A stretch of 64,000 bases of DNA from Geothrix paludis. GTDB lineage: Bacteria; Acidobacteriota; Holophagae; Holophagales; Holophagaceae. A program made the position numbers and the translations under genes. Where the stretch lies: positions 1-64,000 of the forward strand of contig NZ_JAKZLC010000007.1 of NCBI RefSeq assembly GCF_022808815.1, given 5' to 3'. How positions within the stretch are numbered: the stretch's first letter is position 1; each line of letters starts with the position of its first letter. Shown piece by piece: positions 1 to 14,006 of this stretch. The notes under the pieces are model-generated. The model did no database searches. It saw nothing but the letters and a program-made list of their open reading frames with translations, and was not told the origin of the DNA.

Positions 1-3
1 GGC

Positions 4-127
4 CCCTAACCCTCCGCTCAACTCGGACCCAGCCTGCATTGTCTTCCGCTCTATCTCAACTTCTCGCTTCCTCGGCTCCGCTCAACGCCTCGGTGCAGGC
101 GGGGCCGGTTAGCTTCATTCGTTAGGC
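4..127 (+). repeat. attC site 1
   Basis: R'' CCCTAAC at 4-10 and R' GTTAGGC at 121-127. Inner arms AACTCGGACCC... and GGGGCCGGTT are present. It closes a cassette whose gene lies left of the window. Confidence 0.93.
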
Positions 128-132
128 CGTCG

Positions 133-615
133 ATGCGCATGAATCATATCTTCAAGGCTGGTTTCATAGTCATAGCCGCAATGGCTCTTGATGCTGCGCC
201 AAAGGTAAAGCCGGGGATTTCGATTCAACGGTTACAGGTGAGTGAACTTCAAGATGGCGCAATTAGCTACGCCTACTTTACGGATAAACCTAAGGGAGTT
301 GGCTGCGAATGGGCAACATCACCTCAAATCGCCGCTCCCTCCAAAGTTGATCCGCATCAACTCGCCATTCGGATTAATGGTCGACTTCACCATCTCCAAC
401 TTTCAGAAGGTCATAGCCGCAATGGCCCTAAATCATTCGATGGCACTACCTATCGGCTCTTCAGGGAATGGTCAGACAACGAAGTCAAAATTGAAATTTA
501 CGAAAATCGTATTGAAGAAAACGACTCACAAAGGTGTACACAGGGTTTACTGATCGTGACCATTGGCGAAGATTCTAAGCGTTTCCCACTCTGGGGGCTA
601 CACGGATGCGAGTAG
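133..615 (+). CDS. Cassette 1: hypothetical secreted protein
   Basis: A 160-residue protein with no family I recognise. The N-terminus has a basic start followed by a hydrophobic stretch (FIVIAAMALDA), which looks like a signal peptide, so export is likely. The start is ATG at 133; a second in-frame ATG at 139 is equally possible. It begins six bases after the R' box of attC 1 and ends seven bases before attC 2, the usual cassette layout. A 16-nt string (TCATAGCCGCAATGGC) occurs at 170-185 and again at 411-426 in a different reading frame, suggesting an internal duplication of sequence rather than of protein. Confidence 0.65.
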   Translation: MRMNHIFKAGFIVIAAMALDAAPKVKPGISIQRLQVSELQDGAISYAYFTDKPKGVGCEWATSPQIAAPSKVDPHQLAIRINGRLHHLQLSEGHSRNGPKSFDGTTYRLFREWSDNEVKIEIYENRIEENDSQRCTQGLLIVTIGEDSKRFPLWGLHGCE

Positions 616-621
616 CGATCG

Positions 622-745
622 GCCTAACCCTCCGCTCAAGTCGGACCCCGCCTGCATTGCCTTCCGCTCTGTCTCAACATTTTGCTATCTCGGCTCCGTT
701 CACCGTCTCGGTGCAGGCGTGGCCGCTTAGCTTCCTTCGTTAGGC
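622..745 (+). repeat. attC site 2
   Basis: R'' GCCTAAC at 622-628, R' GTTAGGC at 739-745. The L' box reads CCGCTTAGC instead of the commoner CCGGTTAGC. Confidence 0.95.
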
Positions 746-750
746 GCTCC

Positions 751-1173
751 ATGCAGATCACATCACTTCCCACCGAAAAGGTGATCATGGTGTTGGCCCT
801 TTGTTTGGTCAGTTCATGCACTTCTGTCATTGCGCACTACGATCACCGAGGGGCAGGTACTGTTTGGGTTGAGCAAACACATGGCGGTCCCAAAATTGGC
901 ACTGGTGCAGTCATATACAGGCAGAACGATTATTTCGAATTGAGCTTTCATGAAAGGTCCAATACCTACAGTTCGGCGAATATGGAGGTTCGGATCGGGT
1001 CTAGATACGATTCGAAATCCAGAATTCTCAACCGCTTCGAAGGCGGTGTCCAAATTGATCGAGAACAGTCGGTCATTGAAATCACCATCGTTGAGATCCT
1101 GTCTGATGGCAAGAAATCGCCTCTTCCCATTAACGGGCGCCATAAACTCAAGCCGGGCCAAATGCTTCCCTAG
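751..1173 (+). CDS. Cassette 2: putative lipoprotein
   Basis: A 140-residue protein starting at ATG 751, six bases after R'. An upstream in-frame ATG at 682 lies inside attC 2 and would only translate the recombination site. The N-terminus carries a Lys, a hydrophobic run and then LVSSC, which fits a lipobox with lipidated Cys at about residue 23, so the mature protein is probably a membrane-anchored lipoprotein. The remainder is rich in charged and beta-prone residues and matches no family I know. ATG 787 is an alternative start but would lose the basic n-region. Confidence 0.65.
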   Translation: MQITSLPTEKVIMVLALCLVSSCTSVIAHYDHRGAGTVWVEQTHGGPKIGTGAVIYRQNDYFELSFHERSNTYSSANMEVRIGSRYDSKSRILNRFEGGVQIDREQSVIEITIVEILSDGKKSPLPINGRHKLKPGQMLP

Positions 1174-1174
1174 C

Positions 1175-1298
1175 GCCTAACCCTCCGCTCAAGTCGGACC
1201 CCGCCTGCATTGCCTTCCGTTCTCTCTCATTATTTCGCTATCACGGCTCCGCTCATCGCCTCGGTGCAGGCGTGGCCGCTTAGCTTCATTCGTTAGGG
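1175..1298 (+). repeat. attC site 3
   Basis: R'' GCCTAAC at 1175-1181, R' GTTAGGG at 1292-1298. It starts one base after the stop codon of cassette gene 2. Confidence 0.95.
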
Positions 1299-1309
1299 CT
1301 CCCACTTCG

Positions 1310-1705
1310 ATGAGGAATTCCTGGCCCGTTCTTCTTCCATTGCTGATGAACGTCCTTGCCTGCTCGTCAGGGAAATCCGTCATTCCCGAGATTCAAACCT
1401 TGGCCCGCGTTGAATCACCCGATGGCCGGTATGAAGCCAGATTGGATCGCATCATTGGTGGGCCTTGGATGGGTGGTGCCGTCGTTTGGCAAGAGTTGCG
1501 AGTGGTTCCACGGAATGCCGTGGTCCATCCGGGCCAAGATGAGCCGAGCATTACTCTCACTTCCAATGAGGAAGACAATTCACCCTCAGTTGGCCTTCGT
1601 TGGGCATCGTCTGCCAAACTAGTTGTCACCCCAACAGGTCCAAGCTCAATTAAGCAAGTCCGCCAATCCATCGGCAATGTCGAGATTTCCATCTCCCAAC
1701 AATGA
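1310..1705 (+). CDS. Cassette 3: putative lipoprotein
   Basis: A 131-residue protein. The N-terminus MRNSWPVLLPLLMNVLAC has the basic, hydrophobic and VLAC lipobox order of a bacterial lipoprotein signal, with Cys at residue 18. After a short Ser-rich linker, the segment VESPDGRYEARLDRI resembles the beta-propeller-like start of many small periplasmic proteins, but I cannot assign a family. The gene starts 11 bases after R' of attC 3 and stops just before attC 4, so it is a complete one-gene cassette with no visible promoter of its own. Confidence 0.65.
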   Translation: MRNSWPVLLPLLMNVLACSSGKSVIPEIQTLARVESPDGRYEARLDRIIGGPWMGGAVVWQELRVVPRNAVVHPGQDEPSITLTSNEEDNSPSVGLRWASSAKLVVTPTGPSSIKQVRQSIGNVEISISQQ

Positions 1706-1708
1706 TCG

Positions 1709-1832
1709 CCCTAACCCTTAGCTCAACTCGGACCCCGCCTGCATTGCCTTCCGCCCTCTCTCAACATTTCGCTACCTCGGCTCCGTTCATCGCCTCGGTG
1801 CAGGCGTGGCCGGTTAGCTTCATTCGTTAGGT
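1709..1832 (+). repeat. attC site 4
   Basis: R'' CCCTAAC at 1709-1715, R' GTTAGGT at 1826-1832; arms intact. Confidence 0.94.
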
Positions 1833-1840
1833 AGCCCAAC

Positions 1841-2194
1841 ATGCGCTCGCGAATTGCCTGTCTAGTTATCGCGGTCTCGGTGCTCACTGGCTGTTCATCT
1901 ACCCCTGAGAAGGCCCCGACACTTGCTCAGGCAGCTGCATTCCCAAAGGAATTTCAACCTGGAGCAAGGGCTGTGGCTGCTTCCATTCAGCAACACGGTG
2001 AGAATCCCTCAGAGTTCCATGCCGTAGTTGAGGGACCGATAAATGGCACTCTCATTTTCCATCTCTGGCATCAGAGTGCTTTCACCCCGGAAAACAGGAA
2101 CCCGGCTCTCGTTGGCAACCCTGGTGGCAAATGCCGTGATGTAACTTTTGATATCGCCACCAACAAAGTCCTCTCAACTGCACTTTGGCAGTGA
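1841..2194 (+). CDS. Cassette 4: putative lipoprotein
   Basis: A 117-residue protein. MRSRIACLVIAVSVLTGC is a textbook lipoprotein signal, with lipobox LTGC and Cys at residue 18, followed by the Ser-rich linker SSTPEKAPT. The mature domain of about 95 residues contains FHAVVEGPINGTLIFHLWHQ and is not a family I recognise. It starts eight bases after R' of attC 4. It is the third lipoprotein in a row in the array, so export of cassette products looks like a theme. Confidence 0.68.
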   Translation: MRSRIACLVIAVSVLTGCSSTPEKAPTLAQAAAFPKEFQPGARAVAASIQQHGENPSEFHAVVEGPINGTLIFHLWHQSAFTPENRNPALVGNPGGKCRDVTFDIATNKVLSTALWQ

Positions 2195-2201
2195 CCGGCC
2201 T

Positions 2202-2325
2202 ACCTAACCCTCCGCTCAACTCGGACCCCGCCTGCATTGCCTTTCGCTCTCTCTCAACTTCTCGCTTCCTCGGCTTCGCTCAGCGCCTCGGTGCAGGCGG
2301 GTCCGGTTAGCTTCATTCGTTAGGC
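2202..2325 (+). repeat. attC site 5
   Basis: R'' ACCTAAC at 2202-2208, R' GTTAGGC at 2319-2325. Confidence 0.95.
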
Positions 2326-2347
2326 ATGCCTCTAGAGAGTCGTTCAG

Positions 2348-2917
2348 ATGAATGAAGCGTTCAATTATTGGCTCATTGGGATTCAATACTTACGTTTAGC
2401 GGAAGCAGCGTGTAATGAACTGGTTGGCCGAGAGAATGCATCTGGGGTTGTATTTATTGGAGCGGTAGATTGGGACGAGTACCTTGAAGCGACTAAGTGG
2501 TCCGATCACAGCATTGGGATTGCAATTTTATTCAATTTCTTTCATGGAATCGAAGTTCTCCTCAAAGGATTCCTATCATTGAAAGCAGCCAGTCCGCCGC
2601 GGCACCACAGGCTTTCAGAAATTCTTATGGAGTTTGAAAAGGAATACCCTGGTACTCGCCTTTCAAGCCTTGTTCGCGAATACACGGAAGAGCTGTGCCC
2701 CTACTCCCCTCTTGGCCAGTTTTTCAGAACGAACGCGATATCGGTGGATGAGTGGTACGAGGCATTAAAATATCCCGAGTCAAAAAGCGGTCGTTCTTAT
2801 CGGCACACGGACTTAAAATATGGCGGCCTTGACACAGTTCACTTTTGGAAATCTATCGGCAATACAGCCATTCTTCTGCGAAAAGAGGCTGTACAACTAT
2901 CTAGGTCCATCGATTGA
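2348..2917 (+). CDS. Cassette 5: HEPN-like helical protein
   Basis: A 189-residue soluble, mostly helical protein without a signal peptide. The stretch around residues 58-95 (FFHGIEVLLKGFL, then HHRLSEIL) resembles the core of HEPN-type domains, in which a helix with E..LK is followed by a loop and an H-x-L motif. HEPN proteins are often RNases or nucleotide-binding partners in toxin-antitoxin and defence systems, but the catalytic R-x4-6-H motif is not obvious, so function is open. The GC content is lower than in the core genome. It starts 22 bases after R' of attC 5, with an AGAGAG stretch upstream. Confidence 0.45.
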   Translation: MNEAFNYWLIGIQYLRLAEAACNELVGRENASGVVFIGAVDWDEYLEATKWSDHSIGIAILFNFFHGIEVLLKGFLSLKAASPPRHHRLSEILMEFEKEYPGTRLSSLVREYTEELCPYSPLGQFFRTNAISVDEWYEALKYPESKSGRSYRHTDLKYGGLDTVHFWKSIGNTAILLRKEAVQLSRSID

Positions 2918-2929
2918 ATCGCACCGCAT

Positions 2930-3053
2930 GCCCAACCTCTCGCTCAAGTCGGACCCCGCCTGCATTGCCTTCCGCTCTCTCTCACCATTTTGCTATCCCG
3001 GCTCCGCTCATCGCCTCGGTGCAGGCGGTGCCGCTTAGCTTCATTCGTTAGGC
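2930..3053 (+). repeat. attC site 6
   Basis: R'' GCCCAAC at 2930-2936 (one change), R' GTTAGGC at 3047-3053; L' reads CCGCTTAGC. Confidence 0.92.
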
Positions 3054-3075
3054 TTCACCACAAGGAGTCACCAAG

Positions 3076-3489
3076 ATGCCTCGAAAAGTCATCGCTCCTT
3101 TGCTTCTTACTTCACTGATCTTCACCCTCGCTGGATGCACCGGCCCTGTTTGGGTCCGGGCACGTCCCGAAGGCGGGTATGTGCGCGCCCAAGGGTATAG
3201 CCACGAAGACAACTCTCGCATCACTGCTGAACTTAAAATTTTCGGCACCATCGATCCGAGTTCCATTTCATTTGAAGGGGCTTCTCCGCAAGAATTGAAA
3301 ATCGAATATCAGTCAGATGAAGCAACTGTGCGTTGGTCAGTGCCAGGAGATCGGATTGGTAAATGGAACAAAGCTCCGTATTTCATTCTTGGGCGAAGTA
3401 AGGATCGACCTTTCAAAATTCGAGTCGACTGCCAGCCTAAACACACCATTCTTACCGAGATGATTCTCATTCCGGGGGCTCGGTTGTAA
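3076..3489 (+). CDS. Cassette 6: putative lipoprotein
   Basis: A 137-residue protein with a good ribosome binding site (AAGGAG, eight bases before ATG 3076). MPRKVIAPLLLTSLIFTLAGC is a lipoprotein signal with lipobox LAGC. The mature part begins TGPVWVRARPEGGYVRAQGY and is probably a small beta domain; I cannot name the family. It contains a single later Cys near the C-terminus (RVDCQPKH). It is a complete cassette between attC 6 and attC 7. Confidence 0.68.
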   Translation: MPRKVIAPLLLTSLIFTLAGCTGPVWVRARPEGGYVRAQGYSHEDNSRITAELKIFGTIDPSSISFEGASPQELKIEYQSDEATVRWSVPGDRIGKWNKAPYFILGRSKDRPFKIRVDCQPKHTILTEMILIPGARL

Positions 3490-3513
3490 AACCAAACCAG
3501 AACTGGTTCTTCA

Positions 3514-3637
3514 GCCTAACCCTCAGCTCAACTCGGACCCCGCCTGCATTGCCTTTCGCTCTCTCTCAACTTCTCGCTTCCTCGGCTCCGCTCATCGTCT
3601 CGGTGCAGGCGGGGCCGGTTAGCTTCATTCGTTAGGA
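3514..3637 (+). repeat. attC site 7
   Basis: R'' GCCTAAC at 3514-3520, R' GTTAGGA at 3631-3637. Confidence 0.95.
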
Positions 3638-3641
3638 CGCC

Positions 3642-4136
3642 ATGAATCAACTCAAAATTCCCCTTGGCTTTCTATTGACCACCATGGCGTTCTCTTCGCT
3701 AAAAGCGGAAGAGCCGAAGGAACGCTTCAGGGTCGGGCTTGTTGCTAGTTTCCCGATTTCAGATTTCAAAGATTCGACCTCATCAGCAGGGCCAGGCATT
3801 TCTGCTGGCTGGAGTTTCTGGACTATATCCCCCAACACCAGTGCAGGCATGTATCTCGAAAATGGTTGGTACTCCGCGGATTCAGGTACGGCAGTTCTAA
3901 CTAACCTAGGCTTTGAGATGAGGTCGAGATTAAATGGTGGATTCTATGACCGGTATGGAATTGGTGCTGTCCGTGTGAAAGCACCGACTTCAGAAGCTAC
4001 GATCAAACTCGGTGGCGTTTTTGGGTTTGGTTATAGGTTTAGCGATGCAGTTGGAATTGAGCTTTATGGGGCATTCCTGGCCTCATCTCAACCCCCTGCT
4101 TCAACGTTGAACATGGCCGTTGTATGGAATTTCTAG
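3642..4136 (+). CDS. Cassette 7: outer-membrane beta-barrel-like protein
   Basis: A 164-residue protein with a cleavable signal peptide (basic start, hydrophobic FLLTTMAF, likely cleavage after SLKA). The mature part shows alternating hydrophobic strands with many Gly and aromatic residues (GISAGWSFW, YDRYGIGAV, LGGVFGFGYRF) and ends in Trp-Asn-Phe. A terminal Phe is typical of proteins inserted by the BAM complex. This suggests a small outer-membrane barrel, as in OmpW/OprF-N-like proteins, but without family assignment. The start codon is only four bases after R' of attC 7. Confidence 0.55.
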   Translation: MNQLKIPLGFLLTTMAFSSLKAEEPKERFRVGLVASFPISDFKDSTSSAGPGISAGWSFWTISPNTSAGMYLENGWYSADSGTAVLTNLGFEMRSRLNGGFYDRYGIGAVRVKAPTSEATIKLGGVFGFGYRFSDAVGIELYGAFLASSQPPASTLNMAVVWNF

Positions 4137-4169
4137 CTGCCCAAAATGAACCAAGCAAACCGCCTGGCG

Positions 4170-4293
4170 CCCTAACCCTCCGCTCAACTCGGACCCTGCC
4201 TGCATTGTCTTCCGCTCTCTCTCAGCTTCTCGCTTCCTCGGCTCCGCTCAGCGCCCCGGCGCAGGCGGGTCCGGTTAGCTTCATTCGTTAGGC
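4170..4293 (+). repeat. attC site 8
   Basis: R'' CCCTAAC at 4170-4176, R' GTTAGGC at 4287-4293. Confidence 0.94.
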
Positions 4294-4299
4294 AGCCCA

Positions 4300-4857
4300 A
4301 TGGAATTCTCAGAATCACCTGGCATTGGCAAGCCGAAATCAAATCGGTTCAAAATTCGTGCGAGTATCTTATTTTTGATCTCAACAATCCTGTTTACATA
4401 CACCGTCATTTGCAACGTATTCTATTATCGATCCAAAAAAGAACTGACCAGCCAATACGCATTGATTCATTCCTTTTATATTCAATCGTCACCAGCAATA
4501 GAAGGTTTTGCCTTAAGGTATGCTTCCTCACGCATTGTTCAAGTCAAAGCCCAAAGTAACCACGGGCATCTAGTTTCTCCGTTTAATTCTGACGATTTCG
4601 AATTCATAAAAACAAAATATGTTCTACTCGATAACATCGCCTTCGAAATTCTAGGCAAATTACAATTTCGAGAAGTCCCTGAAAATTTATCCGATATAGT
4701 TGAACTAAATAAATTTCTGATTTCCTCAAACAAATTACAAATTCAATATTCAAAATCAGTCGACGACTACAATAGTACTTGTAAAACAATGCATCAATTA
4801 CTTCCATCCTTTTTAATTCTTGATCTGGAAACAAACCCAGGAGATTTTCGGAGCTAG
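4300..4857 (+). CDS. Cassette 8: LemA-like membrane-anchored protein
   Basis: A 185-residue protein in distinctly AT-rich DNA. Residues about 20-42 (ASILFLISTILFTYTVICNV) form one transmembrane helix; the rest is an extracytoplasmic helical domain. The C-terminal part, with YSKSVDDYNSTCKTMHQLLP, resembles the LemA-family pattern of a long helix with a YN...FP motif, and an N-terminal anchor is also LemA-like. The match is only partial, so the role is unknown. The base composition differs strongly from the neighbouring cassettes. The following attC has a damaged R' box, which may fix this cassette to the next one. Confidence 0.4.
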   Translation: MEFSESPGIGKPKSNRFKIRASILFLISTILFTYTVICNVFYYRSKKELTSQYALIHSFYIQSSPAIEGFALRYASSRIVQVKAQSNHGHLVSPFNSDDFEFIKTKYVLLDNIAFEILGKLQFREVPENLSDIVELNKFLISSNKLQIQYSKSVDDYNSTCKTMHQLLPSFLILDLETNPGDFRS

Positions 4858-4880
4858 CAACTTGGTCGTATCGCAAGGCT

Positions 4881-5004
4881 GTCTAACCTCTCGCTCAACT
4901 CGGACCCCGCCTGCATTGCCCTCCGCTCTCTCTCAACATTTCGCTTCCTCGGCTCCGTTCATCGTCTCGGTGCAGGCGGGTCCGGTTAGCTTCATTCGCT
5001 AGGC
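4881..5004 (+). repeat. attC site 9 (altered R')
   Basis: R'' GTCTAAC at 4881-4887; R' is GCTAGGC at 4998-5004, so the conserved GTT is GCT. Arms remain intact. Confidence 0.88.
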
Positions 5005-5009
5005 ATTCC

Positions 5010-5948
5010 ATGATCGCTTCGACAGTTCTATGGATGGTCGTTATGGTCCTTGTCCCTCGCTCGGGGCCAAGGATCAACCCTCAAGAACTTCCTGCACTTG
5101 CTGCTGATCCAAAGCTGTCTGAAAGACTCGGATCAAAGGCTGAGGCAGAAGGGAAATATGCGGAGGCAAGAAGGCATTACGAAGAGGCTTGTCGCCTCGA
5201 TGCAGATTGGGGAGAAGAAAATCAGCCTCCATTCGGAGAGGCAAGCGTCCTCCTCAAACTTGCACGACTGCTTCGCGATCCAAAGTGCGGTCCTCCCGAC
5301 CTCACACGGGCCGGGCGCTGTTATGTGGCCGCACTTGGCATCGGTTCAAACCAATGGAGTGCAGAAGCCTGGATTGAACTGATCAAAATGTATCGAGATG
5401 GTCTAGGTGTGCCAAAGGATCCTGGATTTTCAAAGCATCTGTTGGAGGAATTTCGATTCAAGGCGGGAAATATGCACTGGTCCAAAGAGGACAGTCGTCG
5501 CCTTGCACTGATGTGGGAGAAAGGAGATTTCCTACCAAGAAACCTACTTGCTGCATCCAGTCAATTTTATTTGGCTGGCGACATAGCATCCGCCCGCAAA
5601 GCCTTAGAGAAAGGGGCCGATGAAGGCGATCCATCTGCATGTGAAAAATTGGCATGGTCCTATCAGGGCCAAGGTTTGGTAGTCACCGACATCGACCCAA
5701 AAAGGGCTAACGCGTACTTGCTGAAAGCCAAGTCTCTTCGTTCAGCGATTACCTCGCCCAAGCCCCAAACCAATCCTGAGAAGCCAAGAGTAGCCATGAG
5801 GGCCTGGGGTGGCGATGCCGGCCCTCCACAAGAAGCAAGTGATGAATCACTAGGGTCCGAAAAACAGCATGAACTCTCCCAAACCCCTGACCCCGTCCGT
5901 GGGCTTTATCATCGACTTTGGGCAGAGTACCTGTCCCCAAAGGATTGA
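5010..5948 (+). CDS. Cassette 9: Sel1/TPR-like repeat protein
   Basis: A 312-residue protein, the largest cassette product in the strong part of the array. It starts with a hydrophobic segment (VLWMVVMVLV) that may be a signal or anchor. Helical repeats follow: residues about 45-65 (AEGKYAEARRHYEEACRLD) look like a TPR, and 118-145 (AEAWIELIKMYRDGLGVPKD) like a Sel1-type repeat, with further degenerate copies around 190-240. Such repeats normally mediate protein-protein contacts. The C-terminal 60 residues are Pro- and Lys-rich and probably disordered. The start is ATG 5010, five bases after R' of attC 9. Confidence 0.6.
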   Translation: MIASTVLWMVVMVLVPRSGPRINPQELPALAADPKLSERLGSKAEAEGKYAEARRHYEEACRLDADWGEENQPPFGEASVLLKLARLLRDPKCGPPDLTRAGRCYVAALGIGSNQWSAEAWIELIKMYRDGLGVPKDPGFSKHLLEEFRFKAGNMHWSKEDSRRLALMWEKGDFLPRNLLAASSQFYLAGDIASARKALEKGADEGDPSACEKLAWSYQGQGLVVTDIDPKRANAYLLKAKSLRSAITSPKPQTNPEKPRVAMRAWGGDAGPPQEASDESLGSEKQHELSQTPDPVRGLYHRLWAEYLSPKD

Positions 5949-5955
5949 GTGAATG

Positions 5956-6078
5956 CCTAACCCTCCGCTCAACTCGGACCCCGCCTGCATTGCCTTCCGC
6001 TCTCTCTCGGCTTCCCGCTTCCTCGGCTCCGCTGGTCGCCTCGGCGCGGGCGGGTCCGGTTAGCTTCATTCGTTAGGC
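5956..6078 (+). repeat. attC site 10
   Basis: R'' GCCTAAC at 5956-5962, R' GTTAGGC at 6072-6078; the L' arm reads GCGGGCGGGTCC. Confidence 0.93.
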
Positions 6079-6123
6079 CTCTCACAATCTTCAAAGCCAT
6101 CATCGATCCAGGCACGGAGCACC

Positions 6124-6465
6124 ATGGCCAAATACCTGATCTCCTTCCCCAGTGCTGCGATGGTCGTTCCCAGCGGCGAGCTAGAGGCAGTGGGCCACGC
6201 TGCGCACGCCGTGATTGAAGAGGCGAAGGCCGCTGGCGTTTACATCTTCGGCGGTGGCATCGACGAAGATGTGCCGCCAGTGCTCGTTTCGTCCGATGGC
6301 ACGATCTCTATGGGCGGTTACCCGTGGGCGCCCACGCTCGATGGCGGATTCACCGTGCTCGAGCTGCCCTCGCGCGAAGAGGCCATCGCGTGGGCTACAC
6401 GGATCGCCAAGGCTTGCCGCTGTGACCAAGAGCTACGCGTCTTCGGGCTCGACCCGCAGTCCTAA
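6124..6465 (+). CDS. Cassette 10: YciI/DGPF-like protein
   Basis: A 113-residue cytosolic protein. The C-terminal pattern LDGGFTVLELPSREEAIAWA followed by CRCDQELRVFGLD matches the YCII-related (DGPF) fold, in which a conserved Gly-Gly-Phe strand precedes an EAI-x-WA helix. These proteins form dimeric alpha-beta barrels; most have no proven reaction. The usual DGPF motif is replaced by a longer loop. GGAG lies close before ATG 6124. GC content is high, unlike neighbouring cassettes 8 and 11. Confidence 0.68.
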   Translation: MAKYLISFPSAAMVVPSGELEAVGHAAHAVIEEAKAAGVYIFGGGIDEDVPPVLVSSDGTISMGGYPWAPTLDGGFTVLELPSREEAIAWATRIAKACRCDQELRVFGLDPQS

Positions 6466-6485
6466 AGGCGCACGGACGCATATCG

Positions 6486-6609
6486 GCCTAACCCCTAGCT
6501 CAACTCGGACCCCGCCTGCATTGCTTTTCGCTCTCTCTCAACTTCTCGCTTCCTCGGCTCCGCTCAGCGCCTCGGTGCAGGCGGGTCCGGTTAGCTTCAT
6601 TCGTTAGGC
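6486..6609 (+). repeat. attC site 11
   Basis: R'' GCCTAAC at 6486-6492, R' GTTAGGC at 6603-6609. Confidence 0.95.
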
Positions 6610-6615
6610 GCATCG

Positions 6616-7257
6616 ATGATCGCTCCAATGAGAATTAAGCTGATATCCGTTGCAATCATGGCGATCTGTGAATTCGCCTGCCTTGGACCAAATACATTCA
6701 CTGTTCCAAAGACACAGAAGAAAATCGGAAACTTAGGATTCCTGATTGATATCCCAATTCCAGGAGTTCCAATTGAGTGTCAGTTCCCGGGCAATGGGAT
6801 AGTGAATTATGATTTTTACTTGAATTCGAGAGAATTCAAGCCTGCCAAACTATTTTCTGTTGAATGGATAAGCCGGAAGGGCAAGCAGCCCCTGAGCGAG
6901 AAGGAAGTAGACACATATTTGGTGGACTTCATTCCCAAATATTTGACACATAATTTTGAAAACGGGAATTACACACTTCTATTCTCAAGCCCAGTTGTTC
7001 TCAATAATGAATTCGCTGGAACATTATTCGTGGGTTCTGGTCATCACAATGGCGGTCAGCCAGGTTCAATCTATCTAATCACTGTTTACTTCGATCATCA
7101 CTGGGCCATGATTTATTCTTTAAATACGAACACGATTGAGAAAGATAACCCATCGCTTCGTTCCATGGAATCAGTTGCTGGCCTGCCCGCGTTTGGCAAT
7201 TTCAGCAAATTTGCAGACTCATTTGATTTGGACCTACCTTACAAACCCCGGAAGTGA
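6616..7257 (+). CDS. Cassette 11: hypothetical secreted protein
   Basis: A 213-residue protein in relatively AT-rich DNA. The N-terminus (MRIKLISVAIMAICEFAC, counted from the alternative start at 6628) is hydrophobic and reaches Cys in EFAC, so it may be a lipoprotein or a secreted protein. The body is a mixed alpha/beta domain with many aromatic and charged residues and no motif I recognise. The gene sits as a single complete cassette between attC 11 and attC 12. Confidence 0.6.
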   Translation: MIAPMRIKLISVAIMAICEFACLGPNTFTVPKTQKKIGNLGFLIDIPIPGVPIECQFPGNGIVNYDFYLNSREFKPAKLFSVEWISRKGKQPLSEKEVDTYLVDFIPKYLTHNFENGNYTLLFSSPVVLNNEFAGTLFVGSGHHNGGQPGSIYLITVYFDHHWAMIYSLNTNTIEKDNPSLRSMESVAGLPAFGNFSKFADSFDLDLPYKPRK

Positions 7258-7272
7258 GTAGGTGCCAGATGC

Positions 7273-7396
7273 GCCTAACCCTCCGCTCAACTCGGACCCC
7301 GCCTGCATTGCCTTCCGCGCTCTCTCAGCTTCCCGCTTCCTCGGCTTCGCTCATCGCCTCGGTGCAGGCGTGGCCGGTTAGCTTCACTCGTTAGGT
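7273..7396 (+). repeat. attC site 12
   Basis: R'' GCCTAAC at 7273-7279, R' GTTAGGT at 7390-7396. Confidence 0.95.
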
Positions 7397-7413
7397 GTTC
7401 CCTCGGGGCTTTA

Positions 7414-7911
7414 ATGACCAAATATCCAATGTCCAAGCAAGTTCTAGGCTTCTTTGGGTGGCTCTCCATTTGCTTTGCAACCGCAGCCCTTGGCGCCCTC
7501 GCTTCCGCACAAGCTGGATCTTTCTACAAGGCACTCATTCGCCCACTATGGGCACCACCCGGATGGCTCTTCGGTCCGGTTTGGACTGTTCTCTACATCA
7601 TGATGGCCATTTCAGCCTGGCTTATATGGCGGGAATACGGTCTTCGAAAGGCCGGTCCCGAGCTCGCTCTGTTCGTTTTCCAACTAGCCGTAAATGCCCT
7701 ATGGACTTGGTTGTTCTTTGTTTGGCATCTCGGCGCCCTGGCGTTCGCTGAGATCCTATTTTTGTGGCTGTTGATCATCGCCACCGCAATTATGTTCTGG
7801 CGCCGAAATCGTTTTGCGGGTGCTTTGCTTATCCCCTATTTAGCCTGGGTGTCTTTCGCTTCCGTTCTCACCTGGGCAGTATGGAAAAGCAATCCCCACA
7901 TCCTTGCCTAA
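7414..7911 (+). CDS. tspO: Cassette 12: TspO/MBR family membrane protein
   Basis: A 165-residue protein with five predicted membrane helices and the TspO/MBR pattern: WAPPGWLFGPVWTVLY near residues 49-64, then ALWTWLFF and a C-terminal LLIPYLAWVSFA. Family members bind porphyrins and cholesterol-like ligands and influence tetrapyrrole handling and stress responses. The stop codon TAA (7909-7911) lies inside the R'' box of attC 13, so the recombination site supplies the end of the reading frame. A second ATG at 7429 is a possible start. Among the cassettes this is one of the most confident functional calls. Confidence 0.9.
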   Translation: MTKYPMSKQVLGFFGWLSICFATAALGALASAQAGSFYKALIRPLWAPPGWLFGPVWTVLYIMMAISAWLIWREYGLRKAGPELALFVFQLAVNALWTWLFFVWHLGALAFAEILFLWLLIIATAIMFWRRNRFAGALLIPYLAWVSFASVLTWAVWKSNPHILA

Positions 7912-8029
7912 CCCTTAGCTCAACTCGGACCCCGCCTGCATTGCCTTCCGCTCTCTCTCATCCACTCACCTCCTCGGCTCCGCTCATCGCCTCGGCACAG
8001 GCGGGGCCGGTTAGCTTCATTCGTTAGGC
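7906..8029 (+). repeat. attC site 13
   Basis: R'' GCCTAAC at 7906-7912, R' GTTAGGC at 8023-8029. It overlaps the end of the tspO-like gene. Confidence 0.95.
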
Positions 8030-8048
8030 GTTCCCACCTTCATTCCGG

Positions 8049-8537
8049 ATGGTTGTCATGAGCGCTCAATCGGTTTTCACGTTCCTTCTTTCTCTGGCGT
8101 GCACAACCCTACCTGCCCAGGTAGATGCAGCTGCATATCTTCCAAGGTCGTTTGATCAGATCCTCATCGAGAGGAAACCGTGTGCAGATCCTGCATCAGA
8201 CCTTAATGTGTGCACGGAAATTCACAAATATCAAACCCAACTGACATATCTAAATGAGATACGCCCAATTACCGGCCGAAAGGCTGAACTACTAAAGGGC
8301 CTCCAAACCTCATGGAAGGCCCTGCCAAATGTCGTTCAGTTTTTCGCCATGTACCATCAGGAAATACTGGTTACCTACAAAGGCACCAAGGTATGGATCC
8401 CAATCCAAGACTCTTTAATCCCTGAAGTGAAGCAATACTTGAAACCAAACCATGACTTCTTGGCGTTCCTAGTGGTTCCAGGCGCTCTAAAATCAGAGTT
8501 GGTCTTCGTTCTGACAAGATTCGATGAACTTGATTAG
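8049..8537 (+). CDS. Cassette 13: hypothetical secreted protein
   Basis: A 162-residue protein. Residues about 4-27 (SAQSVFTFLLSLACTTLPAQ) look like a cleavable signal peptide, so a periplasmic location is likely. The mature part has two Cys pairs close together (KPCADP, NVCTEI) that could form a disulfide and a C-terminal half with alternating hydrophobic strands. No family is recognised. ATG 8058 is an alternative start with slightly better spacing from a GGA stretch. Confidence 0.6.
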   Translation: MVVMSAQSVFTFLLSLACTTLPAQVDAAAYLPRSFDQILIERKPCADPASDLNVCTEIHKYQTQLTYLNEIRPITGRKAELLKGLQTSWKALPNVVQFFAMYHQEILVTYKGTKVWIPIQDSLIPEVKQYLKPNHDFLAFLVVPGALKSELVFVLTRFDELD

Positions 8538-8554
8538 GGGTTCGGGCCGGGTAC

Positions 8555-8678
8555 GCCTAACCCTCCGCTCAACTCGGCCCCCGCCTGCATTGCCCGCCGC
8601 TCTCTCTCATCGTTCCGCTTCCTCGGCTTCGTTCAGCGCCTCAGTGCAGGCGGGTCCGGTTAGCTTCATTCGTTAGGC
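8555..8678 (+). repeat. attC site 14
   Basis: R'' GCCTAAC at 8555-8561, R' GTTAGGC at 8672-8678. Confidence 0.95.
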
Positions 8679-8719
8679 TGCGCGGCGTGTTCAACCTCGC
8701 CAACAGGAAAGGTCCAAAC

Positions 8720-9574
8720 ATGAAGAGGACGGCTTTTCTCCTGACGATGTTTCTGCCAGCTGCCTTAGTGGCGCAGCATCAACCTACGACGGGTTACGCC
8801 CCGGTGAACGGTCTCAAGATGTACTACGAGATCCACGGGAGCGGCGACCCGGTGGTCCTGCTCCACGGCGCGTTCATGACGATCACCAACAACTGGACCG
8901 GGTGGATTGACGAGCTCTCCAAAACGCGGAAAGTGATCGCCGTCGAGATGCAAGGCCATGGGCGCACGGCGGACATCCCACGCGACATCACCTCCGAGAA
9001 CCTCGCCGACGATGTGGCGGCTCTGCTCGATTACCTGAAAATCCCACGCGCGGACCTCCTCGGGTACAGCATGGGCGGCGGCGTGGCCATGCGGTGTGCG
9101 ATCCGTCATCCGGACAAAGTGCGAAAGGTCGTCGTCATTTCGTCGATGCTCCGCCGGGACGGCGTGGTCAAGGAAGGGCAGGACGCCCTCGCGACACTCA
9201 CCGCGGACGCCTTTAAAGGTTCGCCCATTGAAGTCGAGTACAAGAGACTGAACCCGAATCCGGACGATTTCCCGAAGTTCGTCAAGCGGGTCCTCGCCAT
9301 GGATTCGAAAGGGCGCGACATTGGCGACGATCAACTGAAGGCCACCCCGGCGCCGATGTTCTTCATCCACGGTGACTCGGATGGTGTACGGCTCGAGCAC
9401 GTCGCGGAAATGTTTCGCCTGAAAGGCGGCGGGATCCACGGCGACATCAAGCCGCTCCCCGCCTCGCGATTGGCCATCCTGCCCGCCACGACGCACGTGA
9501 CGCTGATGCAGCGCATGTCCGTCATCGTCCCGATGGTGAATGACTTTCTTGACGCCAAGCAACCAAAGCCATAA
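8720..9574 (+). CDS. Cassette 14: secreted alpha/beta hydrolase
   Basis: A 284-residue protein. [19 protein letters not shown] is a signal peptide. The fold is an alpha/beta hydrolase: the oxyanion motif VVLLHGAF, the nucleophile elbow GYSMGG, an acidic residue in FIHGDSDG and a catalytic His in PATTHVTLM are in the right order. The substrate cannot be read from sequence; esterase or haloperoxidase-like activity is typical. Start ATG 8720 is chosen over the in-frame GTG at 8687 because AGGAAAGG lies upstream and the signal peptide starts there. GC content is high compared with most cassettes. Confidence 0.85.
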
Positions 9575-9632: not shown

Positions 9633-9756
9633 GCCTAACCCTGTGCTCAACTCGGACCTCGCCTGCATTGCCCTCCGCTCTCTCTCAACTTCTCGCTTCC
9701 TCGACTCCGTTCAGCGCCTCGGTGCAGGCCGGTCCGGTTCGCTTCATTCGTTAGGC
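9633..9756 (+). repeat. attC site 15
   Basis: R'' GCCTAAC at 9633-9639, R' GTTAGGC at 9750-9756; L' reads CCGGTTCGC. This is the last site with both outer boxes intact. Confidence 0.93.
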
Positions 9757-9819
9757 CTTCCTCGAAAATCCAAAACCCAGGTCCCTTCTTAAAAACCCAG
9801 CAGCAATAGGATGCTTGTC

Positions 9820-10359
9820 ATGAACCCATCCAAGCCTTCTCTTGATGAACTTGTGGCGGTGCTGGAACGAACGCCCGCTAGTCTCGCGAAGTTGCTCGAA
9901 GGATTACCTGAAACCTGGGTGACAGCGACCGAGGGCGATAACACTTGGTCCCCGTACGATGTCCTCGGCCATCTCATCCATGGCGAGAGAGTCAACTGGA
10001 TTCCTCGAGCACGGCACATCCTGGCTGGAGAGACGCGACCATTTGATCCATTCGATAGAACTGCCCAGTTCAATCAAAGCCAAGGCAAACCGCTTTCAGA
10101 GTTGCTCACGACCTTTGAATCACTTCGACGCGATAACGTCTCTGTTCTACTCGAAATGAACCTTACGAACGCAGACCTTGATCGTGTCGGTCTACACCCT
10201 GAACTTGGGAATGTAACATTGGCGCAGCTATTGGCAACGTGGGCTGTCCATGACCTTGACCATCTTGGACAGATTGCCCGAACGATGGCAAAGGTTTGCG
10301 CCAGTGCCGTAGGACCATGGGCGAATTACTTATCGATCTTAAAGGATCGTCGGCATTAA
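9820..10359 (+). CDS. Cassette 15: DinB-fold protein
   Basis: A 179-residue four-helix-bundle protein of the DinB/YfiT-like superfamily. Metal-ligand positions are visible as His in GHLIHGE (around residue 50) and the pair in HDLDHLGQI near residues 145-153. The pattern matches putative metal-dependent enzymes, many of which use small thiols; the reaction is not known here. Start ATG 9820 follows AGGA at suitable spacing; ATG 9811 is an alternative. The attC that follows (site 16) has lost its R'' box. Confidence 0.8.
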   Translation: MNPSKPSLDELVAVLERTPASLAKLLEGLPETWVTATEGDNTWSPYDVLGHLIHGERVNWIPRARHILAGETRPFDPFDRTAQFNQSQGKPLSELLTTFESLRRDNVSVLLEMNLTNADLDRVGLHPELGNVTLAQLLATWAVHDLDHLGQIARTMAKVCASAVGPWANYLSILKDRRH

Positions 10360-10386
10360 GTGGCTCAACTACGGACAGTTCGGCTT

Positions 10387-10509
10387 AGGTAGCCCTCCGC
10401 TCAGCTCGGGCCCCGCATGCGTTGCCCTCCGCCCTCTCTCAACTTCCCGATTCCTCGGCTCCGCTCAGCGCCTCGGTGCAGGCGGGGCGGTTAGCTTCTT
10501 TCGTTAGGC
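10387..10509 (+). repeat. attC site 16, degenerate R''
   Basis: The R'' position reads AGGTAGC (10387-10393) instead of GCCTAAC, while R' GTTAGGC at 10503-10509 and the inner arms survive. The outer stem can no longer pair. Confidence 0.85.
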
Positions 10510-10542
10510 CCGGCCCAGAGAAGGTGTCCACCCAGACCACAC

Positions 10543-10845
10543 CTAGTTGTCAATCAGCATTTCAAGCCTGAGCAGTTGCTCTACCCGAAGCACGGTGACA
10601 ACCCATATGGTGCTTCCGGCCCGGCGATAGATGACTCGACAGGGATAGGCAGTTACTTCGCGGTGAGGCAATCCCTTGAAAACCACTTTTCCCATCTCTG
10701 GATGCTCTCGCAAGTGCTCCAAGAGTTTCTCGACATGCGCAGCAATCTTGGAGGTAGCGTCAGGATTGTCCATCGCGATGAATTGAAGGATCTCGTTCAA
10801 CTGCCGATGGGCTCGTGGAGCAAACCTGATGCTTAGCGTTGCCAT
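10543..10845 (-). CDS. Cassette 16: RelE/ParE family toxin
   Basis: A 100-residue basic protein with the RelE/ParE fold: N-terminal helices with ARQ-like repeats (HRQLNEILQFI), then KGLPHREVTAYPCRVIYR and a final strand with VVTVLRVEQLL. ParE types poison DNA gyrase and RelE types cleave mRNA on the ribosome; sequence alone does not decide which. It overlaps the antitoxin gene by 13 bases, the usual coupled arrangement with the antitoxin first. It runs opposite to every other cassette gene. Confidence 0.88.
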   Translation of the reverse strand: MATLSIRFAPRAHRQLNEILQFIAMDNPDATSKIAAHVEKLLEHLREHPEMGKVVFKGLPHREVTAYPCRVIYRRAGSTIWVVTVLRVEQLLRLEMLIDN

Positions 10846-11102
10846 TTCTTCAGGTCCGCTTTGACGTTCTTCCAGCTAACGCTCAGTCCTTGCCCGATTT
10901 CCATTTCGCCCATGGCAATCTCCTCGAGCACGGCCAGGCGGTTCGTCAGCATGTGGTAAGCCTCTGGGTCCATGATCACGCCAGCTTCCCGCCCGTGCTC
11001 CGTGACCATGACGGGTTGTTTGGTGGCCCGCACTTGCTCGAAAATCTCTGCGGTGTGTCGTCGCACTTCTGTAAGGGGTGTAAGGTTTGGGCTCAGGTTC
11101 AC
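10833..11102 (-). CDS. Cassette 16: Phd/YefM family antitoxin
   Basis: An 89-residue protein with the Phd/YefM N-terminal DNA-binding fold: LTEVRRHTAEIFEQVRATKQ, then PVMVTEHGREAGVIMDPEAY. The C-terminal tail (about residues 60-89) would wrap and neutralise the toxin encoded just downstream. The start is GTG at 11102 with GAGGTG upstream. Antitoxins of this family repress their own promoter, and a good promoter lies immediately before the gene. Carrying such a pair in an integron array can stabilise the array against loss. Confidence 0.88.
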   Translation of the reverse strand: MNLSPNLTPLTEVRRHTAEIFEQVRATKQPVMVTEHGREAGVIMDPEAYHMLTNRLAVLEEIAMGEMEIGQGLSVSWKNVKADLKKWQR

Positions 11103-11119
11103 AGCATCACCTCAAACAA

Positions 11120-11147
11120 AGTATAACTATTCTTGCACTTTTTGCAA
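11120..11147 (-). promoter_or_regulatory. Promoter of the toxin-antitoxin cassette
   Basis: On the minus strand TTGCAA (11147-11142) and TATACT (11125-11120) are separated by 16 bases, a near-consensus sigma-70 promoter. It faces the antitoxin gene and lies inside the cassette, so the pair does not depend on an upstream integron promoter. Confidence 0.75.
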
Positions 11148-11154
11148 TTCCTGG

Positions 11155-11278
11155 GCCCAGCTCACCGCTCAACTCGGACTCCGCTCGCATTTCCTTCCGC
11201 CCTCTCTCGGCTTCCTGCTTCCTCGGCTTCATTCAGCGCCTCGGTGCAGGCGGGGCCGGTTAGCTTCATTCGTTAGGC
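11155..11278 (+). repeat. attC site 17, degenerate
   Basis: R''-like GCCCAGC at 11155-11161, R' GTTAGGC at 11272-11278; the L'' arm is partly changed (ACTCCGCTCGCAT). Confidence 0.85.
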
Positions 11279-11285
11279 GTCTCGG

Positions 11286-11610
11286 ATGCGCCCCACCGAA
11301 TTCATCAACCTCTTCGCAGTTCTTCTTGGGGCTCTCTATGTGGGGATAGCATCAGGTTTTATCGCTCTAATCGCCCCTATCCCAATCTCGCCCAGAGCTC
11401 GATCGTGGGTCGCATACGGTGCCCCGGTCGCACTCGCGACCATGCTCGATCTTCCTGCCCATCTGGGACCGAGGCACTTACCCCAGCTGCGGTTGGGATG
11501 TCGTGGCGATTCTGTTATGGGCAACTGTGGGCATGGTGGTTTCCATTCTCGTGGCCAATTACAAAGAGCGTCGATCTAAACTTAAAATCAATCCGACGCC
11601 TAGCCCTTAG
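11286..11610 (+). pseudogene. Cassette 17: frameshifted two-helix membrane protein
   Basis: From ATG 11286 the frame encodes a hydrophobic N-terminus (FAVLLGALYVGIASGFIALI), then loses sense after about residue 58. A second frame that becomes sensible from about 11450 encodes IWDRGTYPSCGWDVVAILLW and a membrane helix ending in a basic tail (NYKERRSK). Joined near 11445-11460 by a one-base correction, the two parts make a plausible membrane protein of about 107 residues that stops at 11610. Either the gene is broken or the assembly has an indel here. As read, the first frame stops at 11579. Confidence 0.5.
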
Positions 11611-11721
11611 CTCAACTCGGACCCCGCCTGCATTGCCTTCCGCTCTCTCTCAACTTCCCACTTCCTCGGCTCCGCTCGTCGCCTCGGTGCAGGCAGGGCC
11701 ATCTAGCTTCATTCGTCAGGC
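11598..11721 (+). repeat. attC site 18, degenerate
   Basis: R'' GCCTAGC at 11598-11604, R' GTCAGGC at 11715-11721; L' reads CCATCTAGC. Both outer boxes carry changes in the conserved triplet. Confidence 0.82.
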
Positions 11722-11726
11722 GCTCC

Positions 11727-12302
11727 ATGCTTCCCGAATCCTTCGCCATTATCGGTGCCATCATCGGGTCGCTCGGCGGCTTCTATTACTTATACGAAAC
11801 CATCGCCGGCAAAGCCCAACCCAACCGCATCACGTGGCTGCTTTGGGGTGTTTTCCCGATGGTTATTTTTGTGGCGCAAAGGGCGCAAGGCGTAAAGAGT
11901 TTATCCTGGGCGTCCTTTGCCGCCGGCTTTACGCCGTTGCTTATCGTTGCTGTATCTTTCTTCAACAAGAAGGCCTATTGGAGAAGCGAGCCCCGCGACT
12001 ACTACCTGATGGCGGCGGCCATCATCGGCATCGTCCTCTGGGCCATGACCGACAATCCGAACCTGGCCATCCTGTTCTCGCTGCTGGCCGACATGCTGGC
12101 CGGCATACCGACCCTCATCAAGTCGTATCTCCATCCCCATTCAGAGAGCTGGGTTGCCTATGCCGTCAGCGCATTCGGTTTCGGAATAAGCTTTCTGTCG
12201 ATTCGAACCCACAACTTTGAAAATACAACTTTTGTAGCGTATCTTTTCATTCTCAATGGCACCTTTGCGGTACTGGCCTCACGAAGCCGTAAGCATCAAT
12301 AA
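11727..12302 (+). CDS. Cassette 18: multi-pass membrane protein
   Basis: A 191-residue integral membrane protein with about six or seven hydrophobic segments. Internal symmetry is suggested by two halves: ITWLLWGVFPMVIFV in the first and ADMLAGIPTLIKSY in the second. Small helices ending in a Pro motif recall PQ-loop/SemiSWEET-type transporters, but the resemblance is weak and I give no function. The start is ATG 11727, five bases after the R'-like box of attC 18. Confidence 0.6.
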   Translation: MLPESFAIIGAIIGSLGGFYYLYETIAGKAQPNRITWLLWGVFPMVIFVAQRAQGVKSLSWASFAAGFTPLLIVAVSFFNKKAYWRSEPRDYYLMAAAIIGIVLWAMTDNPNLAILFSLLADMLAGIPTLIKSYLHPHSESWVAYAVSAFGFGISFLSIRTHNFENTTFVAYLFILNGTFAVLASRSRKHQ

Positions 12303-12334
12303 GCGACCAGCTTCTTTCATCAACCTCGGCGCCA

Positions 12335-12458
12335 GCCCAACCCTCCGTTCTGCTTGGGCTTCGCCTGCCTGGCCTTCCGCCCCTTCTCAACCATTCGCTT
12401 CCTCGGCTCCGCTCCCTGGCCTGACGCAGGCGGATCCGGTTGGCTTCATTCATCAGGG
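12335..12458 (+). repeat. attC site 19, strongly degenerate
   Basis: R'' GCCCAAC at 12335-12341; the R' position reads ATCAGGG (12452-12458). Many substitutions occur in the variable part, yet the length and arms (GCGCAGG-like) are kept. Confidence 0.75.
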
Positions 12459-12469
12459 GTCTCCGGCTC

Positions 12470-12934
12470 ATGCCCACCATCGAAATCGCCACAACCAGAA
12501 TGGACATTGATTCTGCGCGGGACCTTTTCCTCGAATATCAATCCCTCTTGGGGGTCGATCTCGGGTTCCAGTCGTTCGATGAAGAAGTCAACCGCCTGCC
12601 AGGCGACTACGCGCCTCCCGATGGAAGGCTGCTTCTCGCCAAAAAGGATGGCTTCCCGCTCGGGTGCATTGCCTTGCGGCGCATCTCCGCCACCAGGTGT
12701 GAGATGAAGCGCCTTTTTGTCAGGCCCCAAGGCAGGGGCCTGGGCGTTGGCAAAAAGCTTGTCGCCCGGCTCATCGCGGAGGCCCGGTCCATGGGATACG
12801 CCGAAATCGTCCTGGACACCCTGCCCACCATGACCGAGGCCCAGACCATGTACCTGGCCTTCGGTTTTCACGATATCGCCCCCTACCGTCCCAACCCCAT
12901 TCCTGGGGCGCGGTTCCTGGGCCTGTCCCTGTGA
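12470..12934 (+). CDS. Cassette 19: GNAT family acetyltransferase
   Basis: A 154-residue GNAT protein. The acetyl-CoA binding motif A is clear in MKRLFVRPQGRGLGVGKKL, followed by the motif B helix (EAQTMYLAFGFHDIAPY). It should transfer an acetyl group to an amine; the substrate is unknown. Start ATG 12470 lies 11 bases after the degenerate R' of attC 19; the upstream ATG at 12440 would read from inside the site. Codon use is GC-rich and core-like. Confidence 0.85.
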   Translation: MPTIEIATTRMDIDSARDLFLEYQSLLGVDLGFQSFDEEVNRLPGDYAPPDGRLLLAKKDGFPLGCIALRRISATRCEMKRLFVRPQGRGLGVGKKLVARLIAEARSMGYAEIVLDTLPTMTEAQTMYLAFGFHDIAPYRPNPIPGARFLGLSL

Positions 12935-12936
12935 TC

Positions 12937-13062
12937 GGTCCACCCCTCTGTTCACCTCGGGCTCCCGCCTGCATTGGCTTCGGCGCATTCCCGCCTTCCC
13001 GCTTCCCAGGCTTCGTGAGCCGCCTTGGGGCGGGCGGAAACGGGTAACATCCTTCGTCAGAC
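12937..13062 (+). repeat. attC site 20, remnant
   Basis: The region retains the order ACCTCGGGCTCCCGCCTGCAT ... GGGGCGGGCGGAAACGGGTAAC ... CGTCAGAC with an R'-like GTCAGAC at 13056-13062. R'' is no longer recognisable. Confidence 0.6.
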
Positions 13063-13078
13063 CGCCTCCGAGGTTCAC

Positions 13079-13396
13079 ATGCATCCGAACTTCCCGCTGC
13101 TGATCGCCTCCCTGGTCCTCGCCGCCCTCGCCCTTCCACTGGCCGTGAGATGGGTCCGCCCGAATCCGCTGTACGGCGTTCGAATCCACAGGAGCCTCCA
13201 GAACGAGCGGCTCTGGTTCAAGACCAACACGTTTGGCGGTTGGCTGCTGGTGGCGGTGGCCCTGCTCGGCGTCGGCCTCTCCATGGCCGGTTCGACCATC
13301 ATCGGGTTCTCTGCCAGCTTCAATTGGCTCCTTTTTGTGGCTGCCCTTCTTGTCGCTCTGATCATGTCAACGGCCTACGCCTACCTTGCGGCGTAA
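13079..13396 (+). CDS. Cassette 20: SdpI-like small membrane protein
   Basis: A 105-residue protein with three membrane helices. Between helices 1 and 2 the segment RPNPLYGVRIHRSLQNERLW, followed by FKTNTFGG, fits the SdpI family signature (N-x-x-YG-x-R ... W-x-x-x-N-x-x-G). SdpI gives immunity to a cannibalism toxin in Bacillus; distant relatives are widespread and mostly of unknown role. Start ATG 13079 follows the R'-like box; an upstream ATG at 13025 would read through the attC remnant. No attC is visible between this gene and the next. Confidence 0.65.
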   Translation: MHPNFPLLIASLVLAALALPLAVRWVRPNPLYGVRIHRSLQNERLWFKTNTFGGWLLVAVALLGVGLSMAGSTIIGFSASFNWLLFVAALLVALIMSTAYAYLAA

Positions 13397-13554
13397 TCCC
13401 CGGGCTCAAGCCAGTCCATCCCCCAGGCCACAACGATATGGATCATGCCCTTCTCGCTCGAGTGCTCCAAGGTGACGAAGAATCCGCCTCCCGGTTTGGC
13501 AAACCTTGAATTCACCCTTCTCGACGACGGTCGCCTCATCAAGGAGCACCCACC

Positions 13555-13974: not shown

Positions 13975-14006
13975 TGGCAATCGTGATGTCGCCGGGTCGG
14001 CCGATG

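Follow-up and report, generated by a model that had tools for sequence, protein, structure and literature searches.

Do the gene cassettes of a chromosomal integron preferentially encode proteins that leave the cytoplasm? The question is raised by the first 64 kb of contig NZ_JAKZLC010000007.1 (here C7; RefSeq assembly GCF_022808815.1) of Geothrix paludis, in a genome of 3.41 Mb on 9 contigs; this stretch of 64,000 nucleotides is referred to below as the window. An earlier note had counted at least nine exported products among the first 14 cassettes (positions 133 to 9574) and had suggested that the array tunes the cell envelope. Here we report that the cassette pool of Geothrix is biased approximately twofold towards products with predicted export and approximately threefold towards lipoproteins, an enrichment that holds. 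Our joint reading, to which we give a probability of about 0.68, is that the window carries the distal part of a Geothrix integron array, with an export-biased cassette pool that would be moved by the integrase IntI and would constitute a reservoir of surface functions.

What the region contains is the distal end of a chromosomal integron array, in a member of the genus Geothrix (Acidobacteriota). Sites of the attC type, approximately 124 bp long and approximately 75-99% identical to a single query site, are repeated between base 4 and approximately 14.1 kb of the window and turn degenerate at the far end of the array. Their consensus folds with GCCTAAC pairing GTTAGGC, i.e. complementary core boxes are present. 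The 14 cassette genes were located as the earlier note had placed them, and each is followed by an attC site. An intact intI without internal stops lies on another contig of this genome (G000, C2:579331-580275) and reaches 462 bits against TIGR02249 (cut-off 265); the closest named matches of the integrase are from Geothrix species, with G. terrae at 95% identity, and an integrase above the same cut-off occurs in 29 of 47 Geothrix genomes. Contigs C2, C4 and C6 of the same genome also end in array sequence, and the stretches sampled contain four more attC sites on C1, two on C3 and one on C4. More complete Geothrix genomes possess several dispersed arrays each, with one common attC type. Inside each of 24 array stretches all attC sites are on one strand, and the main open reading frame (ORF) lies on that strand in 384 of 387 cassettes, although the scoring favours that strand.

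Export was predicted with a home-made scorer for Sec signal peptides and lipoboxes, with cut-offs of 8 for the signal and 10 for the lipobox. It was calibrated on 173 proteins of E. coli K-12 with assigned localisations (ambiguous, very short and cut genes being excluded), where it recovered all 7 lipoproteins and 22 of the 24 signal-peptide proteins and called exported 0 of 105 cytosolic and 5 of 37 membrane proteins. Extra Geothrix arrays and background were added for statistical power: the arrays come from 10 of 12 Geothrix genomes and from that of the window (11 genomes), the background from 8 of these 11. Among 406 cassettes, 19 had no ORF of at least 60 amino acids (aa) and were dropped, leaving 387; a further 8 ORFs of one cassette family, taken as noncoding, were also dropped, which gave 379 cassette genes. 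Removal of five stretches with attC-like hits reduced the background from 1068 to 967 genes. One cassette (window 10503-11154) was entered as a wrong-strand ORF instead of its ParE/Phd genes, all of which count as cytosolic.

In the pool of the 11 genomes, export is predicted for 111 of the 379 cassette genes (29%), compared with 158 of 967 sampled non-array genes (16%; odds ratio (OR) 2.1, p = 2e-7). Rates no higher than the genome average, which the earlier note had named as the outcome that would speak against an enrichment, were thus not what the pooled comparison returned. Lipoproteins make up 29/379 of the cassettes (7.7%) and 23/967 of the background (2.4%; OR 3.4, p = 2.4e-5), other signal-peptide proteins 82/379 and 135/967 (OR 1.7, p = 0.0009). 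The exported class is likewise enriched when one member per protein cluster is compared with background proteins of at most 320 aa (89/320 versus 70/475; OR 2.2, p = 8.5e-6), at four pairs of cut-offs, and whichever third of the background, split by codon score, serves for comparison (lowest third 24/179, p = 2.3e-5). A PROSITE-like lipobox pattern matched 25 of 387 cassettes and 24 of 967 background genes (p = 0.001). In single genomes the exported fraction ranges from 0.17 (G008) to 0.47, with a background of 0.163.

Several points weigh against this result. The effect shrinks at the strictest cut-offs (64/387 versus 58/539, p = 0.014), and the lipoprotein excess loses significance when the background is restricted to its lowest third by codon score (29/387 versus 7/179, p = 0.14). 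The predictor is home-made and not a standard signal-peptide program, cassette and background genes were called under different rules, and the background was drawn from non-array genes in general rather than from family-less ones. Moreover, the evidence from the G. paludis genome alone is weak, with p between 0.014 and 0.14 depending on the mode of counting. A first count gave 17 exported among 69 cassette ORFs versus 127 among 746 other genes (p = 0.14), and for lipoproteins 5/69 versus 19/746 (p = 0.045), or 7/69 versus 20/746 with alternative starts (p = 0.005). With one main ORF per cassette, one noncoding ORF removed and four cassettes from two small arrays added, the figures are 17/62 versus 116/676 (p = 0.056) and, with alternative starts, 19/62 versus 115/676 (p = 0.015); without that removal and addition p becomes 0.034 and 0.014, respectively. 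Signal peptides without a lipobox are not significantly enriched in this genome (11/62 versus 99/676, p = 0.46).

How far does the bias show in the first 14 cassettes of the window? Six of the nine products listed in the earlier note pass as exported. Genes 4 (1841-2194, 117 aa) and 6 (3076-3489, 137 aa) pass as lipoproteins, as proposed, and genes 2 (751-1173, 140 aa; lipobox score 9.8) and 3 (1310-1705, 131 aa; 8.45), which had been credited with a lipobox as well, stay below the cut-off and pass as signal-peptide proteins, gene 2 being a probable and gene 3 a possible lipoprotein. Among the five products for which plain signal peptides had been proposed, genes 7 (3642-4136, 164 aa; score 8.05) and 14 (8720-9574) pass; gene 14 encodes an alpha/beta hydrolase for which the ATG at 8720 is judged a likelier start than the GTG at 8687. 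Gene 1 (133-615, 160 aa; 7.8) and gene 13 (8049-8537, 162 aa; 8.8, but assigned to 'membrane' by the rule) are borderline, and export of gene 11 (6616-7257, 213 aa; 6.7) is unsupported. Gene 1 has relatives at four other places in the genus, three of which, when aligned, score 8.65, 8.3 and 7.5. Gene 8 (4300-4857, 185 aa), which had gone unnamed, passes as exported or N-terminally anchored. The strict count is accordingly 7/14, or 9/14 if genes 1 and 13 are included.

Comparison of homologous cassettes bears on whether such signals belong to real proteins. The export call is concordant in 79% of 110 homologous cassette pairs, compared with 56% by chance (the noncoding family included). The median ratio of nonsynonymous to synonymous substitution rates (dN/dS) is 0.26 where both members are exported (24 pairs, including 3 from the noncoding family, with 40-97% identity and dS above 0.05) and 0.21 where neither is (40 pairs). 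For single genes of the window, dN/dS is 0.14 for gene 4 and 0.06 for gene 13, each against a 96% identical cassette of genome G009, and 0.16 to 0.32 for gene 14 against three cassettes. Gene 6 is matched in 6 other Geothrix genomes, with attC-like hits at 5 of 7 homologous loci, and in the alignment of eight sequences the lipobox Cys is the sole invariant residue of the N-terminal part; the lipobox score is at least 10 in five of the eight, 9.5 in one, and lower in two with short predicted N-termini. Exported cassettes with homologs thus encode constrained proteins under purifying selection, and because of this selection and of the invariant Cys of gene 6 the export signals look real. Gene 7 resembles an outer-membrane barrel (PF13505, E = 0.0023, below the curated cut-off) and its family ends in a C-terminal Phe in 6/6 aligned sequences. 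Five homologs were aligned with it, of which three reach signal scores of at least 8.45, one scores 6.95 and one has an ambiguous start; gene 7 has homologs in the genus in loci without attC hits. Single-sequence AlphaFold2 models of gene 7 (mean predicted local distance difference test score (pLDDT) 41.9, unreliable) and gene 6 (58.3) were of insufficient quality for comparing folds. In the named IntI loci (L095-L174) the 14 genes had one weak homologous hit only.

Cassettes also appear to move. In each of the genomes G008, G014 and G017, two arrays have identical cassettes, which suggests movement between arrays inside one genome; the array pairs L190/L191, L195/L196 and L199/L200 share cassettes without coding-region differences. 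Gene 9 (5010-5948, 312 aa; weak TPR/Sel1 matches under cut-off) and a cassette in an array of genome G001 (L202:17533-18468) encode 100% identical proteins, with dN and dS both zero, a match that suggests a recent transfer between Geothrix genomes. An eight-copy cassette family (L046:4213; L188, L189, L202, L203) has an ORF of 69-98 codons with dN/dS mostly 0.4 to 1.7, and probably represents a noncoding cassette that has reached several arrays.

Could the enrichment be an artefact of gene calling, of composition or of the choice of the richest stretch? The first 14 cassettes are indeed richer in exported proteins than the arrays overall: the strict 7/14 has a binomial p of 0.004 against the background rate and of 0.08 against the pooled array rate of 0.293. 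Nowhere do 14 consecutive cassettes hold more than 8 exported products, and 8 is also the commonest maximum in shuffles (651/1000). The different gene-calling rules mentioned above would likewise favour such an explanation. However, alternative starts enlarge the effect (122/379 versus 160/967, OR 2.4), shuffling of residues 2-40 yields just 3.1% signal-peptide and 0.1% lipoprotein calls in cassettes (2.2% and 0.1% in 300 sampled background genes), and exported pairs evolve under purifying selection. We therefore consider an artefact very improbable. A more serious competitor, to which we give slightly less than even odds, holds that cassettes retain genes able to function by themselves whatever the host, and that small exported proteins are over-represented only thereby, with no coordinated tuning of the envelope. 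In agreement with this, exported cassettes are scattered rather than clustered (35 adjacent pairs versus 31.1 expected, p = 0.19), and other cassettes of the window also stand alone (a ParE/Phd pair, GNAT, DinB_2, an alpha/beta hydrolase). Membrane proteins, too, are mildly enriched with called starts (117/379 versus 233/967; OR 1.4, p = 0.013), an excess that is lost with alternative starts (OR 1.25, p = 0.099). By itself, however, such autonomy leaves the lipoprotein excess unaccounted for, given an OR of 3.4 as against 1.7 for other signal peptides.

An alternative that we regard as unlikely is that exported cassettes mainly protect the cell surface from phages or rivals. Xanthomonas arrays contain twelve detected defence systems, according to passages of a study of these (PMC12444791), but the 101 exported cluster representatives of Geothrix matched only three PADLOC models, with 2, 1 and 1 members. 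We prefer the reading of an export-biased pool moved by IntI. The integrase would capture cassettes and move them among this array, the other arrays of the chromosome and related species; the pool is skewed to small single-gene products with Sec signals, these products would act at the periplasm or outer membrane, and the arrays would form a store of surface functions open to exchange. The proposal of the earlier note that the envelope is tuned by the array agrees with the enrichment but goes beyond it, and we would only infer it: 31 Pfam families have matches among the exported representatives, nearly all in a single member, at least 67 of the 101 match none, and envelope-type families are few (TonB_C with 3 members, YkuD with 1 and an outer-membrane barrel with 1, among 25 families listed of 31).

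How are the captured genes translated? Of 387 cassettes, 329 have a core box no more than 60 nt from the start codon. The distance between GTTRRRY and the start is most often 5-8 nt (132/329, with 49 at 5 nt), mostly with no canonical Shine-Dalgarno motif. The first ATG after the core box falls at 5-8 nt in 127 of 329, compared with 4.3% in shuffled sequence, and 50 of 58 homologous cassette pairs have a short or long gap in common. Short gaps are also seen in the window, e.g. at 127-133, 745-751 and 5004-5010. Any 4-base Shine-Dalgarno motif at -17 to -4 is present in 4% of the 150 cassettes whose gap is 4-9 nt, in 62.5% of the 152 whose gap is at least 14 nt and in 65.6% of 1067 background genes; this spacing test leaves out 58 of 387 cassettes, in which no core box is close enough, and 27 of 329, whose gaps fall outside both groups. 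The contrast arises partly by construction because the stretch before a short-gap start is mostly attC, so that the peak is the stronger evidence. The AGG of the core would fall 6-9 nt before the start, but its predicted pairing with the anti-Shine-Dalgarno sequence is weak (mean -3.0 versus -6.5 kcal/mol in the background).

Tentatively, and with odds of perhaps one in three, the attC core box of Geothrix doubles as a translation signal, with the AGG of GTTAGGC at the Shine-Dalgarno position; a leaderless-like start or plain compactness of the cassettes are possible alternatives for the short gaps. If the core box has this second role, any captured gene, exported ones included, would arrive ready for translation. 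Start spacing is not tied to export, with 51 of 150 exported near and 51 of 152 far. We also rejected the idea that attC codes for a coupling peptide comparable to ORF-11 of attI1: although the frame that ends at the TAG of GTTAGG is open for at least 36 codons in 356 of 370 sites, a second frame is open in 339 of 370, and attC variation lacks a codon pattern (mean entropy 0.43, 0.42 and 0.36 by codon position). Outside Holophagaceae, 50 attC-like sites gave usable starts in 19 cases; these show no peak, with only 3 at 4-9 nt, numbers too few to decide; 15 Holophagaceae loci gave 4 attC-like sites and zero usable starts. Passages of a review state that approximately 20% of gene cassettes are without a canonical initiation region and that ORF-11 of attI1 may help (PMC8876359). 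The passages that we read on attC and ribosome binding contain no description of the attC core as a ribosome-binding site. A link between recombination site and translation start would bear on how cassettes deep in large arrays are expressed.

The remaining features of the window complete the picture of the array. The attC sites around the 14 genes lie, like the genes, on the plus strand at 4-127, 622-745, 1175-1298, 1709-1832, 2202-2325, 2930-3053, 3514-3637, 4170-4293, 4881-5004, 5955-6078, 6486-6609, 7273-7396, 7906-8029, 8555-8678 and, after gene 14, 9633-9756. Gene 5 (2348-2917, 189 aa) has a weak HEPN match under cut-off and no export call, gene 10 (6124-6465, 113 aa) a weak YCII match under cut-off and a cytosolic call, and gene 12 (7414-7911, 165 aa) encodes a TspO/MBR membrane protein. 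Six more plus-strand cassettes follow (9757-14131), with DinB_2, the ParE/Phd pair, two hydrophobic proteins, GNAT and SnoaL/DUF4440. The ParE-like toxin and Phd/YefM-like antitoxin are reversed within cassette 16 (10543-11102, minus strand).

The first attC of the window lies within the first 127 bp of the contig, which exactly match the end of contig C4; the first 127 bases of reversed C4 and of C7 are identical, as are the last 127 bases of C2 and of reversed C6. The simplest reading is that the assembly breaks at one cassette present twice, of which only the ends are visible. The visible start of this doubled cassette encodes a hydrophobic N-terminus that scores 7.35, below the cut-off. 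The doubled cassette (ends of L046 and reversed L048; starts of reversed L047 and window 1-127) appears to link the array on the intI side with the array start on C6. There, no TIGR02249 match is listed for the contig, and the array start adjoins a peptidase-like ORF. By eye, a similar short stretch was seen in the ORF lists at L046:3608-3784 (between intI and the first attC) and reversed L048:9500-9676 (inside a cassette of the C6 array).

How does this compare with known integrons? The closest systems are chromosomal integrons of the Vibrio type and clusters of attC sites lacking integrases (CALINs). The Geothrix system shares with these an intI, uniform attC sites of great length, cassettes by the tens in the same orientation, many of them family-less, a toxin-antitoxin cassette and, away from intI, further attC arrays; it differs in its host and in having several dispersed arrays per genome with one attC type. 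In the part of the literature accessible to us we found no earlier integron report for Geothrix, the sole match, by title, concerning class 1 integrase in sewage. A search combining chromosomal integron, signal peptides and lipoprotein returned no publication, the broader literature on lipoproteins and Vibrio not having been gone through. Vibrio rotiferianus array deletions alter surface polysaccharide (PMC3590141), which supports the idea of an influence of arrays on the cell surface; there it was demonstrated by experiment and for polysaccharide, whereas in Geothrix the case concerns exported proteins predicted from sequence.

Signal-peptide surveys, as far as their available passages go, show the same tendency as Geothrix, although rates are not directly comparable since predictors differ: 13.2% of archaeal cassettes versus 6.9% of the genome (PMC9668308), 11.6% of Xanthomonas cassettes, with the background figure absent from the passages (PMC12444791), 10-30% of integron cassettes according to a review (PMC8618304), and 11% and 14% of cassettes from macroalgal and seawater samples, in a paper that also cites an enrichment over metagenomes as in press (PMC10963911). 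Lipoproteins, which show the strongest skew in Geothrix, are not treated apart in these passages. The export bias of Geothrix cassettes hence fits a tendency already published for other integrons, to which it adds the genus and the lipoprotein skew; and since its genomes carry several arrays each and one lipoprotein family is conserved, Geothrix offers a controlled within-genus test of cassette export bias.

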